64,000 nt of DNA. It comes from Haloplanus aerogenes. Its GTDB lineage: Archaea; Halobacteriota; Halobacteria; Halobacteriales; Haloferacaceae. Positions 27,864 to 32,643 of the stretch are shown here, one piece after another. Position numbers and translations under genes: made by a program. Numbering within the stretch: position 1 is the first letter of the stretch; every line of letters starts with the position of its first letter. The notes beneath the pieces were generated by a model. The model did not search any database and was not told the DNA's origin. It saw nothing but the letters and a program-made list of their open reading frames with translations. Where the stretch lies: contig NZ_CP034145.1 in NCBI RefSeq assembly GCF_003856835.1, forward strand, positions 3,348,001 to 3,412,000, given 5' to 3'.

Positions 27864-27902
27864 CGATAGCGGTCGTCGATTTTCTTCGGCTTGGAAGCGA
27901 CC

Positions 27903-27914
27903 CGAACACGTTCG
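27903..27914. promoter_or_regulatory. CGAA-N4-TTCG palindrome upstream of heme-copper operon
   Basis: CGAACACGTTCG lies 38 bases before the first ATG of the operon. The same 17-base block (CGACCCGAACACGTTCG) recurs at 31812-31828 before the companion gene at 31868. The motif matches the CGAA-N4-TTCG element reported for NarO-type regulation of denitrification promoters in Haloferax. Confidence 0.6.
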
Positions 27915-27952
27915 CACATAGAGATACGCAGTCAATACACCCACGTTGTCGT

Positions 27953-28111
27953 ATGGCAGGATCGGGTGAGTCGACCGAACAAGCAGGCGAACCGTGGCCC
28001 CAGCAACTACTGGAGAGTCCGTGGCTCCTCGCGGGCGCCGCGTTGCTGTACTTCACGCTCTCGTACATCGTCTGGGGTCTGATCGACCTGATGAGCGTCA
28101 AGCCAGGATAA
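27953..28111 (+). CDS. Small single-span subunit of heme-copper oxidoreductase
   Basis: This 52-residue protein has an acidic, Gln-rich N-terminus and a single span (LLAGAALLYFTLSYIVWGLIDL). It occupies the position of the small CbaD-type subunit in archaeal ba3-like operons. Its stop overlaps the subunit II start (TAATG). By analogy it stabilises the complex in the membrane; this is inferred from position and topology only. Confidence 0.7.
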   Translation: MAGSGESTEQAGEPWPQQLLESPWLLAGAALLYFTLSYIVWGLIDLMSVKPG

Positions 28112-29073
28112 TGAAATCACCAATCGAATCTCCGGACGGCGACTGGTGGAACGAGACGGTGAACAGACGGGAGACCATCTGGCTCGGCGTGTCGGGCGTG
28201 TGGGCGGTGACGCTTTTCGGCTGGATGGTCGGGTGGATGCAGTTCGGCGAGCAGAATCAGGTGGGCGAGACGCTGAAACTCTCCACCGCCGACTACCGGG
28301 AGAAGGTGAACACGTACAAACAGCAGGCTGGCGACCTCGACGGTGCGCTCGTCCCGTCGGGTGACGAGGTGTACATCGGGGCGATGCGCTACGCCTTCGA
28401 CGGGTTGCCCGCCGTGCTGGAGACGGGCCGAGAGTACGTCTTCCACCTCGGCTCCTACGACGTACAACACGGCTTCTCGGTCCGGCAGGAGGACACGCTG
28501 AGCAAACAGCTCTCGCTCCAGATGCTCCCCGGCTACGAGTGGAAGGTGCCGATGGAGTTCGACGAGCCCGGCACCTACCACGTCGTCTGCAACGAGTTCT
28601 GTGGCACCGGCCACCGAACCATGCACGCGACGTTCGAGGTGCGGGAGTCGGTGCCGGACGTGAGCGGGAGCGGCGGATCGAGCGGCGACGACGGCGGCAG
28701 CGGCGCGAGCGGCGCCGCCTACGACGGCTGGTTCACCGGGAACGCCCGCGGCGGCGAGACGAGCAACTGGGAGGGATCGGCGGCCGACGAAACCGGTGCC
28801 GACGAGGTGACGGTCACCGTCGGCCCCGGCGGCGAGTACGTCTACGACCCCGCTGCGGTCCGCGTCTCGCCGGGGACGACGGTCACCTTCGAGTGGGCGT
28901 CGCCGACGCACAACGTCCTCGTCGAGTCGGGACCGACCGACTGGAGCGGGCACGAACCCATCGAGAACGACGGGTTCAGCTTCCAGCACACGTTCGAGAG
29001 CGAAGGGGTGTACAAGTACTACTGCCAGCCACACCTCGCGCTCGGCATGAAAGGTGTCGTGGAGGTGGTCTGA
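28111..29073 (+). CDS. CuA subunit II fused to a halocyanin-like blue copper domain
   Basis: This 320-residue protein has one N-terminal anchor (residues 23-43) and an extracellular CuA cupredoxin with ligands His120, Cys160, Cys164, His168 and Met171 (VVCNEFCGTGHRTMH). A Ser/Gly-rich linker (about 184-203) leads to a second cupredoxin (about 230-320). Its type-1 copper ligands are His267 (PTHNVL), Cys305, His308 and Met313 (YCQPHLALGMKG). The second domain is halocyanin-like, so the electron donor is covalently tethered to the CuA acceptor. In Natronomonas the halocyanin is a separate gene. It overlaps the small subunit gene by one base and precedes subunit I by one base. Confidence 0.93.
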   Translation: MKSPIESPDGDWWNETVNRRETIWLGVSGVWAVTLFGWMVGWMQFGEQNQVGETLKLSTADYREKVNTYKQQAGDLDGALVPSGDEVYIGAMRYAFDGLPAVLETGREYVFHLGSYDVQHGFSVRQEDTLSKQLSLQMLPGYEWKVPMEFDEPGTYHVVCNEFCGTGHRTMHATFEVRESVPDVSGSGGSSGDDGGSGASGAAYDGWFTGNARGGETSNWEGSAADETGADEVTVTVGPGGEYVYDPAAVRVSPGTTVTFEWASPTHNVLVESGPTDWSGHEPIENDGFSFQHTFESEGVYKYYCQPHLALGMKGVVEVV

Positions 29074-29074
29074 G

Positions 29075-30790
29075 ATGTTTGGATTCAGCACGTTCAGCTA
29101 CGACGACGAGGGGTATCGGACCTGCTCGGTGACCGGCCTGCAGATTCACCGGTCCGCCGAGGACATGGTGAAACTGTTCGGCCTGACGGCCATCGTCGCG
29201 CTGTTGATCGGCGGCCTCTTCGCCATCTTCGTCGCGCTGACGCGGTGGGAGCTCGTCGGCCTCCTCGCGCCGGCGGACTTCTACACCTTCCTGAGCATCC
29301 ACGCGTGGAACCTGCTCATCTTCTGGATGATCTTCATGGAAATCGCCGTCCTCTACGTGGGCGGGCCGTACGTCCTCGGCCGACCGCTGTCGCTCCCGCG
29401 GGTGGCGAAGGCGGGCTACGCGCTCATGCTCGGCGGGGCGGTGCTCATCAACGTCGCCATCTGGCTGACGAAACAGCCGAATCAGGCGCCGCTTCTGACC
29501 TCTTATGCGCCCCTCCCGTCCTCGCCGTGGTTCTACCTCGGCGTGGTCGTCTTCCTGGCCGGGGCGCTCGTCGCGGCGCTTCCCTTCCTCGCGACCATCT
29601 GGCACGAGAAGCGGGAGAATCCGGGCGGGACGCTCCCGCTCGTCGCCTTCGGCGCGTTCATCACCTCCATCGTCGCCGCGGAGGCCATCGTCGGCGGCCT
29701 CATCACGTACGTTCCGACCTTCCTCTGGCGGGTCGGGATGCTCGCCCACATCGACGCCGCGTGGTACCGGCAGATGTACTGGATCGTCGGTCACGGCAGC
29801 CAGCAGATCAACCTGCTGGCGATGATCTCGGTCTGGTACTTCATGACCCACGTCGTCGGCGGCGCCGAAGTCGCGAGCGAGAAGGTGTCCCGGTCCGCCT
29901 TCGTCCTCTACCTCTTCTTCATCAACATGGGCGCGGCCCACCACCTGATGTCCGACCCCGGCGTCTCCGCCGCGTGGCGGCTCTGGAACACCTCCTACTC
30001 CGCCTACGGGGCGGTCGTCGCGAGCATGATCCACGCCTTCGCCATCCCGGCGGGACTGGAGATCGGCCGCCGGAAGCGCGGCGAGGGCGGCGGCACCTTC
30101 GGGTGGCTCTGGTCCGCGCCGTGGAAGGACCCCGGCTTCTCCGCCACCATCCTCTCGATCATCCTCTTTGGCTTCCTCGGGGGCATCACCGGCGTCATGA
30201 TGGGCCAGATGCAGTTGAACATGACCTGGCACAACACGCTGGCGACCGTCGGGCACTTCCACGCCACCGTCGCCACGGGCACCACGCTGGCGTTCATGGG
30301 CCTCGGCTACTACGTCCTGCGCCTCGTCTTCGGCCGGGAGTGGATCGCCCGCCCCATCGCGACGATCCAGCCCTACCTCTACGGGGGCGCGATGGGCATC
30401 ACCTCGCTGATGATGATGTATCTCGGCATCCTCTACGGCATCCCGCGCCGGCACCCCTCCGTGATGGACATTCCGGGCACCGAGTTCAGCTTCGCGGCGG
30501 CCCGGCCGCTCTTCGTCATCTTCGGCGTGATGGCGCTCATCTCCATCATCGGCGGCGCGCTGTTCGTCCTCGTCGCCGTCGGTTCGCTCCTCGCTGGCGA
30601 CCGGTACCAGGGCGGCCTCCCGGTGACGCGACCGACGGCCGTCGCCGACGGTGGGGGTCACAAGGACACCGCCCACCACCTCCTGAGCATGCGCGGGACG
30701 TTCATCCTCACCTCCATCTTCCTCGGGGTGTTCGTCGTGATGTGGGCGCTCAACTGGTACCTGCTGAGTCAGCTCTGGCAGGTCGGGTGA
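29075..30790 (+). CDS. Heme-copper oxidoreductase subunit I, probable nitric oxide reductase (eNOR-like) rather than ba3 oxygen reductase
   Basis: This 571-residue protein with at least 12 spans has all metal ligands. The low-spin heme ligands are His76 (FLSIHAWNLL) and His396, the high-spin heme ligand is His394 (TVGHFHATV), and CuB/FeB ligands are His240, His289 and His290 (GAAHHLM). The residue four after His240 is Gln244 (GHGSQQIN). A- and B-type oxygen reductases have the cross-linked Tyr there (HPxxY). That loss is typical of NO-reducing members of the superfamily. A CuA-containing subunit II and a putative denitrification operator support a NOR role. An oxygen reductase using another tyrosine cannot be excluded. 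The ATG at 29075 is 1 base after the subunit II stop. Confidence 0.82.
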   Translation: MFGFSTFSYDDEGYRTCSVTGLQIHRSAEDMVKLFGLTAIVALLIGGLFAIFVALTRWELVGLLAPADFYTFLSIHAWNLLIFWMIFMEIAVLYVGGPYVLGRPLSLPRVAKAGYALMLGGAVLINVAIWLTKQPNQAPLLTSYAPLPSSPWFYLGVVVFLAGALVAALPFLATIWHEKRENPGGTLPLVAFGAFITSIVAAEAIVGGLITYVPTFLWRVGMLAHIDAAWYRQMYWIVGHGSQQINLLAMISVWYFMTHVVGGAEVASEKVSRSAFVLYLFFINMGAAHHLMSDPGVSAAWRLWNTSYSAYGAVVASMIHAFAIPAGLEIGRRKRGEGGGTFGWLWSAPWKDPGFSATILSIILFGFLGGITGVMMGQMQLNMTWHNTLATVGHFHATVATGTTLAFMGLGYYVLRLVFGREWIARPIATIQPYLYGGAMGITSLMMMYLGILYGIPRRHPSVMDIPGTEFSFAAARPLFVIFGVMALISIIGGALFVLVAVGSLLAGDRYQGGLPVTRPTAVADGGGHKDTAHHLLSMRGTFILTSIFLGVFVVMWALNWYLLSQLWQVG

Positions 30791-30796
30791 CCCCTC

Positions 30797-31804
30797 GTGC
30801 TCCGTGATCTCCTCTCGCTGACGAAACCCCGGATCGCCGCGCTCCTGTGTCTGACTGGCACGGGTGCGACGTTCGCGGCCGGGGGACTGCCGCTCGCCGA
30901 GCTCGTCGTGTTCGTCCTCGCGGGCCTCGGCATGGCCGGCGGCGCCGCCGCCTGTAACTGCTACTACGACCGCGACATCGACCCCGTGATGGACCGGACG
31001 GCCGACCGCCCGCTCGCTCGCGGGACGCTCGCGCCGCGAACCGCGCTGGCGTTCGGTGTCGGCCTCCTCGCCGCCGCGACGGGGCTCGGTCTGTGGGCGC
31101 TCCCGCTTCAGTCGGTCGTCTACATGTGGCTCGGCGTCGCCGCGTACGTCGGCCTCTACACCGTCCTGTTGAAGCGACGCCACTGGCTCGGTGTCGTCCT
31201 CGGCGGCTCCGCCGGCTCCTTTCCCGTCCTCGCGGGATGGACGGCCATCCGGCCGCTCTCGGCGGCGGCCGTCGTCATGGCGACGCTGGTGTTCGTCTGG
31301 ACGCCGGCCCACGCGTGGGCGCTGGCGGTCGTCTACCGCGACGAGTTCGCCGCCGCAGGGGTCGCGACGCTTCCCGCGGTCACGTCGCTCGACCGAGTCC
31401 GTCGCGCCGTCTGGGCGTCCGCCCTCGGGACCGTCGCCGTCGCGGCCCTGCTCGTTCCCCTCGCAGGACCCGTCTACGCCGGCACCCTCGCCGCGGGCGT
31501 CCCGCTCTTTCTCGTCGCCTACCGCGCTTACCACCGCGGCGGCGGCGAGCCACGGGCCGTGCGCGCCTTCTTCACCTCGAACACCTTCCTCGCCGTCGCG
31601 TTCGTCGCGTGGGGCGTCGACGGCGTCGTCGCCCTCGAACCAACCGCCGCCTATCTCGTCGCCGCCGCGGCGACGGTCACCGCGTTCGTCGGCTGCTGGA
31701 TCGCTCGGCCGAGCCTCGACGGCGTCCGCGCGTCGCCCCCGCCGACGTGGGTGCGGCGGGCGGTGCGGGCCTACGATCGGCTCCGGGTTCGGGTGACTGG
31801 CTGA
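30797..31804 (+). CDS. ctaB: Protoheme IX farnesyltransferase (heme O synthase)
   Basis: This 335-residue UbiA-superfamily prenyltransferase has the first Asp-rich motif NCYYDRDIDPVMDRTADRPL and the second region YTVLLKRRHWLGVVLGGSAG. It carries eight or nine spans and starts with GTG six bases after the subunit I stop. It converts heme B to heme O, the precursor of heme A/O of the complex encoded just upstream. No ctaA is in the window, so the final heme type is not fixed. Confidence 0.92.
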   Translation: MLRDLLSLTKPRIAALLCLTGTGATFAAGGLPLAELVVFVLAGLGMAGGAAACNCYYDRDIDPVMDRTADRPLARGTLAPRTALAFGVGLLAAATGLGLWALPLQSVVYMWLGVAAYVGLYTVLLKRRHWLGVVLGGSAGSFPVLAGWTAIRPLSAAAVVMATLVFVWTPAHAWALAVVYRDEFAAAGVATLPAVTSLDRVRRAVWASALGTVAVAALLVPLAGPVYAGTLAAGVPLFLVAYRAYHRGGGEPRAVRAFFTSNTFLAVAFVAWGVDGVVALEPTAAYLVAAAATVTAFVGCWIARPSLDGVRASPPPTWVRRAVRAYDRLRVRVTG

Positions 31805-31816
31805 GCGGCGCCGACC

Positions 31817-31828
31817 CGAACACGTTCG
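31817..31828. promoter_or_regulatory. Second CGAA-N4-TTCG palindrome upstream of the 31868 gene
   Basis: The identical CGAACACGTTCG lies 39 bases before the ATG at 31868, inside a 17-base block shared with the operator region at 27903. Matching spacing argues for shared control of the two transcription units. Confidence 0.6.
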
Positions 31829-31867
31829 TACCAACCTCCCTGTCGTTCCAGTCCCTTCCTACACCCA

Positions 31868-32584
31868 ATGAGCGAGGAATCCGTTCAGTCGCCGGGAGCG
31901 TGGATCGCCGGGAGCCTGCGCGACGCCTGGCGGACGATGCGATCCATCTACTACGCCAACTCGTTGAGCTGGCGCTTCCTCAAGAGCGGGGCGCTCGTCT
32001 TCTTCGGGTTCTTCCTGTGGTCGGCGTCGAACCTCCTGCTCTCGTACCAGCCCGCGTGGACGTGGCTCCACTACACCATGAGCTACGGCTTCCTCCTGAT
32101 CCTCTACGGACCGGTGCATCACTTCCTCGTCATCCCGCTGGCGATTCGCTGGCGACGAGGGGGAAGTGACACGCAGGCGCGGATCGGCCGCCGCCTCCCC
32201 ACCGCCGGCCTCGCGCTGTTTCTCGTCGCCGTCGTCGTCCTCGGCACCGCGCCGACGGCGCCCGTCGTCTTCGACTTCCAGTCGTCGCTGGAGGGGACGA
32301 GCGCCGACATCAACCCCGACCTGCTCTGTACGCAGTCGACGAGCGACGGCGAAACGGTGATTCACTGCCATCTGACCGAATCCGACGGCATCGACCACGT
32401 GGTCGTGATGAGCGGCGGCGAGCGGATCACGGTGGATCGCCAGCCGCCGTTCGACTTCGATATCCGCGAGAACCAACTGACGAGCGTCACGGGACAGAAG
32501 CAGTTCCAGGTCATCCTCAAGGACGCCGACGGGAACACCATCCGGCGGTACACCCGGACGCTGTCGATGGTTCCCGAGGGGTAG
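31868..32584 (+). CDS. Membrane protein co-regulated with the heme-copper operon
   Basis: This 238-residue protein has a cytoplasmic N-terminus (about 35 residues), three spans (LKSGALVFFGFFLWSASNLL, LHYTMSYGFLLILYGPVHHF, GLALFLVAVVVLGTAPTA) and an extracellular C-terminal domain of about 110 residues. That domain holds two cysteines and an HCH stretch (LLCTQS..., VIHCHLTE) that could bind metal. I recognise no family. The promoter shares the palindrome of the oxidoreductase operon, so a role in assembly or electron transfer to that complex is plausible but inferred. Confidence 0.75.
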   Translation: MSEESVQSPGAWIAGSLRDAWRTMRSIYYANSLSWRFLKSGALVFFGFFLWSASNLLLSYQPAWTWLHYTMSYGFLLILYGPVHHFLVIPLAIRWRRGGSDTQARIGRRLPTAGLALFLVAVVVLGTAPTAPVVFDFQSSLEGTSADINPDLLCTQSTSDGETVIHCHLTESDGIDHVVVMSGGERITVDRQPPFDFDIRENQLTSVTGQKQFQVILKDADGNTIRRYTRTLSMVPEG

Positions 32585-32643
32585 GTGCGGTCGTCACTAT
32601 GGTCGGCCGAAAGTATTTGCGTCGGCCGGCCGACCGTAGCCGC

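Follow-up and report, generated by a model that had tools for sequence, protein, structure and literature searches.

The window analysed here is a stretch of 64,000 nucleotides from Haloplanus aerogenes (contig NZ_CP034145.1, positions 3,348,001 to 3,412,000), and it contains a self-contained five-gene module built around a heme-copper subunit I of the eNOR family. The genes and their main features are the following:

27864..32598, forward strand: the whole module of five genes, delimited by comparison with a congener (G248, L095)
27953..28111, forward strand: small single-helix membrane subunit of 52 aa, first gene of the operon, read in the sequence
28111..29073, forward strand: subunit II, with membrane anchor, CuA domain and C-terminal halocyanin (blue copper) domain, from profile matches
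28588..28623, forward strand: CuA ligand motif C-x3-C-x3-H-x2-M, CNEFCGTGHRTM, read in the sequence and kept with the same spacing in all subunit II genes examined
28756..29067, forward strand: fused halocyanin domain, with copper ligands THN...YYCQPHLALGM (TIGR03102 over cut-off)
29075..30790, forward strand: subunit I of eNOR, the heme-copper catalytic subunit, from a COX1-family match, alignment, tree and model
29792..29806, forward strand: codons of His240-Gly-Ser-Gln-Gln244, the CuB ligand and the Gln replacing the cross-linked Tyr, from the alignment
30797..31804, forward strand: heme o synthase (CtaB/CyoE-like), with a UbiA fold and NF003349/TIGR01473 matches just below cut-off
31868..32584, forward strand: membrane protein of 238 aa, an eNOR-linked partner, from co-occurrence and a structure model

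The stop codon of the 52-aa gene shares one base with the start codon that follows it (TAATG), and a counterpart of this gene upstream of subunit II is found in most eNOR loci, with 43-83% identity. Subunit II is matched by the profiles CoxB TIGR02866 (below cut-off), Copper-bind PF00127 and halocyanin TIGR03102, and its anchor bears the Glu of the proton-channel mouth (RRETIW). The halocyanin fusion is present in only a subset of eNOR subunits II, the others stopping 8-18 residues past the CuA motif. Elsewhere in the genome, the true B-type oxidase gene of the host (L005, around C1:392329-393714) lies downstream of a repeated-halocyanin protein with glycine-rich linkers.

Subunit I is a protein of 571 aa that belongs to the COX1 family (Pfam PF00115, E=3e-55). 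NCBIfam holds no eNOR model, and the protein obtains there only a CtaD match far below cut-off. In the alignment, His76, His240, His289, His290, His394 and His396 line up with the residues that bind the metals in A- and B-type oxidases and in qNOR, as the initial annotation had read them; all six are kept in the 55 distinct eNOR-type homologues, except that the low-spin heme ligand His396 is a Lys in Thermus thermophilus. Gln244 aligns with the Tyr that is cross-linked in ba3 oxidase. The residue is Gln in 55/55 homologues and Tyr in every A- and B-type oxidase of the panel (7/7 B-type, and 4/4 A-type of the host's own genome), which bears out the claim that the active-site Tyr has been replaced. 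The motif HPxxY, given in the initial annotation for haloarchaeal B-type oxidases, is indeed present as GHPVVYF in the host's L005 and in Haloarcula (L080). The seven COX1-family genes of the host comprise four A-type (Tyr), one B-type (Tyr), one qNOR, with Glu in the column of Gln244, and the gene described here (Gln). Besides Gln244, the residues E89, Q243, N246, N284, Y308 and H320 are invariant in eNOR and differ in B oxidases.

An alternative Tyr, of the kind found in C-type oxidases, had been named as evidence that would speak against an NO reductase. Alignment with CcoN places Ile283 at the relevant position, six residues before the His-His pair, where a rhizobial CcoN (L087) has Tyr. 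Compared with ba3 oxidases (those of Thermus thermophilus and L005), the operon shares the fold, the CuA subunit II, the small helix subunit, the channel-mouth Glu, Ser317 and Tyr255, but its subunit I lacks the active-site Tyr, is about 24-33% identical, and carries His320 and Ile251 in place of the channel Thr (Thr312) and the second channel Tyr (Tyr244) of ba3. The polar residues of the K-type path are invariant in eNOR and, with the Glu in subunit II, would form a single conserved conducting channel. This residue pattern, together with the missing C-type Tyr, agrees with an NO reductase that has a single channel, the arrangement predicted for eNOR (PMC8756737).

The structure model of subunit I is of moderate quality (pLDDT 76.6, weak at 381-395), and the nearest solved structures, both by sequence and by fold, are ba3 oxidases. 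Together with databases that call its relatives cytochrome oxidase, this speaks for a B-type (ba3-like) oxygen reductase that has lost the Tyr and retains O2 reduction as its main function. However, the Gln is invariant across bacteria and archaea, and the phylogeny proposed in the initial annotation recovers the Gln family as a single clade (support 99/99) separate from the Tyr-bearing B-type oxidases, with cNOR and qNOR remote. The clade comprises 26 rows, including members from Rhodothermus, Thermus, Thermomicrobium, a myxobacterium and proteobacteria; in this tree the deep branching order of A, B and eNOR is without resolution and long branches are flagged.

The homologues of subunit I in 242 Halobacteria genomes are bimodal: those at 44 loci in 43 genomes share 62-100% identity with it, and the rest do not exceed about 34%. 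Outside this class, close relatives belong to Rhodothermota/Bacteroidota (67-69% identity; Rhodothermus 67-68%, also Salinivenus), and more distant ones (39-45%) are found in Thermus, Thermomicrobium, Defluviimonas and a myxobacterium. Murali et al. (PNAS 2024) reportedly characterised the eNOR from Rhodothermus marinus, which would presumably be about 67% identical to the present protein. The Rhodothermota/Bacteroidota proteins (L052, L055, L046, L047) group with the haloarchaeal ones with support 100/100, a grouping that suggests transfer between domains.

The eNOR family, attributed to Hemp and Gennis (2008), has members in Halobacteria, Chloroflexi and other groups, and is defined by a Gln at the Tyr site, a cupredoxin subunit II and one predicted channel, with Halobacteria among its hosts (PMC8756737). 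It is described or reported as characterised in four papers (PMC8756737, PMC11388526, PMC12569097, PMC13274419), of which a 2024 paper states that it has been biochemically characterised (PMC11388526). The Haloplanus operon shares with known eNOR the Gln for Tyr, the six His, the separate clade, the upstream CuA subunit II, the residues of one channel and a host among Halobacteria; it adds a halocyanin fused to subunit II, an in-operon heme o synthase and the 238-aa partner. Its subunit I has neither the B-type Tyr (four residues after the helix VI His), nor the C-type Tyr, nor the Asn of sNOR, nor the Glu that in cNOR and qNOR accompanies an absent CuA. The initial annotation had named both eNOR and sNOR; the class can be narrowed to eNOR, since Gln is its published mark and sNOR carries Asn (PMC8756737). 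Both sNOR and bNOR (CuANOR) are likewise CuA-linked, B-type-related NO reductases, but have Asn at the active site; they are set apart here by the literature table (PMC8756737) and not by alignment, and sNOR, bNOR and gNOR sequences were left out of the tree. qNOR and cNOR presumably catalyse the same reaction, and qNOR also co-occurs with nirK, but unlike eNOR they have Glu at the site, no CuA, and a position in a remote clade. The product of 29075-30790 is almost certainly an NO reductase of this known family, where automatic annotation would say "cytochrome oxidase".

Genomic context agrees with this assignment. Within the Halobacteria, NirK (scored as present when a match exceeds the family cut-off) is found in 42/43 eNOR genomes and in 85/199 others (Fisher p=1e-12). 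To allow for the relatedness of the genomes, the comparison was repeated within genera having both states, in which NirK is present in 30/31 eNOR genomes and 18/58 others, a difference reached by 0 of 200,000 within-genus shuffles (p<1e-5). Physical linkage follows the same pattern: at least 17 of the 44 eNOR loci lie no more than 15 kb from nirK, as against at least one of the 104 B-type loci, so that among the matches listed this linkage is almost absent for B-type genes.

The plasmids of Thermus thermophilus provide a second line of evidence. In some, an eNOR cassette consists of genes for a NirK-like multicopper protein, DUF454, a small subunit, a CuA subunit and eNOR; others carry norC-norB-norH-nirS in that position, with adjoining Rrf2/DUF542 genes and flanks about 97% identical (L074 11815-16691 compared with the reverse complement of L084, 9552-13808). 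Read from these sequences, the plasmids present a natural swap of cNOR for eNOR. In the isolate TTHNAR1, nirS is retained alongside the eNOR cassette. The T. thermophilus eNOR carries its Lys for the helix X low-spin heme His in the motif HFK on three plasmids (L074:14983-16668, L096:5983-7668, L097:983-2665).

The tree, the CuA subunit II, the co-occurrence and linkage with nirK and the Thermus exchange with cNOR all favour the original proposal of a CuA-type NO reductase over a ba3 oxidase. An enzyme still devoted mainly to O2 reduction is highly improbable, and the product of the operon is very probably an eNOR, one of the heme-copper NO reductases related to B-type oxidases, and is expected to turn over NO. 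Electrons would enter via the halocyanin domain fused to subunit II and pass to CuA, then to the low-spin heme (His76/His396) and on to the high-spin heme (His394) and CuB (His240/289/290) in subunit I, at whose active site two NO would be converted to N2O and water. The Tyr that helps to split O2 would not be needed for this reaction, and Gln sits in its place. The rewired K-type channel (the subunit II Glu, Tyr255, Ser317, and His320 for the ba3 Thr) probably supplies protons from the cytoplasm, so that eNOR may conserve energy.

Altered sites also raise a different chemistry, for example the dismutation of NO into N2 and O2: in NOR-like proteins such as the qNOR-like Nod proteins, active-site substitutions may alter the product. 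The CuA and the channel residues speak instead for a supply of electrons and protons from outside, for which dismutation has no use, and NO reductase function is reported for one member of the family (PMC11388526); dismutation is extremely improbable.

The host itself has genes for a NarG-like protein, three NirK, qNOR and NosZ, a repertoire that would make it a potentially complete denitrifier with two NO reductases. In this pathway eNOR would serve denitrification with NirK and NosZ, beside qNOR. The nirK genes lie at least 75 kb from eNOR and, as the host also carries qNOR, eNOR is not needed to complete the pathway. The presence of both enzymes is consistent with a dual role, in which eNOR reduces NO and, slowly, O2, and mainly removes NO at low oxygen while qNOR sustains anaerobic respiration; eNOR is said to reduce NO under microoxic conditions (PMC11388526). 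Against this division of labour, 13 eNOR genomes have nirK and no qNOR match at E<=1e-100, meaning that the role cannot be merely secondary in every host. The dual role is an unlikely alternative, though one of appreciable weight, to an eNOR that serves denitrification.

The boundaries of the module are defined by the congener G248, in which the flanking genes are adjacent, about 35 bp apart, with nothing between them. The same five genes occur amid unrelated neighbours in another genome (G086, L094), and some of the eNOR loci also have the heme o synthase in this position. eNOR was not found in any of the four other members of the host genus in the 242-genome Halobacteria sample. The empty site alone gives no direction, but this patchy distribution within the genus favours gain, and the module was most likely gained as a unit. 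The five genes would be transferred together from one species to another, the set bringing along its own heme o synthase and a membrane partner dedicated to it.

This partner, the product of 31868-32584, has no Pfam or NCBIfam family over cut-off and gives only a weak hint of an Ig domain. Its AlphaFold model (mean pLDDT 88.7) consists of three long membrane helices and an Ig-like outer β domain; a fold search with it found no whole-fold match, only scattered ones to potassium channels and Ig/FnIII modules (TM 0.2-0.27 by query). Two Cys, C154 and C167, are invariant and could form a disulfide. Among the 242 Halobacteria genomes, the partner search matches 42/43 eNOR genomes and gives, in addition, one weak partial match (G036). 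In G034, the eNOR genome without a partner match, the eNOR match reaches no further than query residue 527, probably because the contig ends there. G207 has two eNOR copies (C1:1664168-1665898, C1:2570100-2571842) and two partner copies, and across haloarchaea the partner tracks eNOR one-to-one. It lies downstream on the same strand, at 26-410 bp in 31/41 loci measured and at 1.1-1.5 kb in the other ten, which leaves room for heme o synthase.

The partner also follows eNOR in Rhodothermota loci. In the Thermus, Thermomicrobium, Defluviimonas and myxobacterial eNOR loci examined no copy was found, so eNOR chemistry cannot require the partner in every case. It is probably an accessory subunit or an assembly factor, and its gene offers a direct handle on how eNOR is built. 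We lean, by a little, towards the broader reading that it is an unnamed subunit or assembly factor dedicated to eNOR in haloarchaea and Rhodothermota, and that the five genes together make up a mobile unit for energy-conserving NO reduction, supplied with a blue-copper donor of its own.

As an enzyme kind eNOR is already known, and for the operon the present assignment is a correct re-annotation; new are the module boundaries with their clean insertion, the 238-aa partner gene and a conflict with a survey of haloarchaeal denitrification. That survey gives qNor as the sole NO reductase class in haloarchaea and accordingly counts many species as potential NO or N2O emitters (PMC8400030). Contrary to it, eNOR is found in 43/242 sampled Halobacteria species. 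For the 13 with NirK and without detectable qNOR, the expected end product becomes N2O instead of NO, and these species offer simple hosts for studying eNOR where it would be the sole NO reductase of the heme-copper type, and for asking whether it conserves energy.
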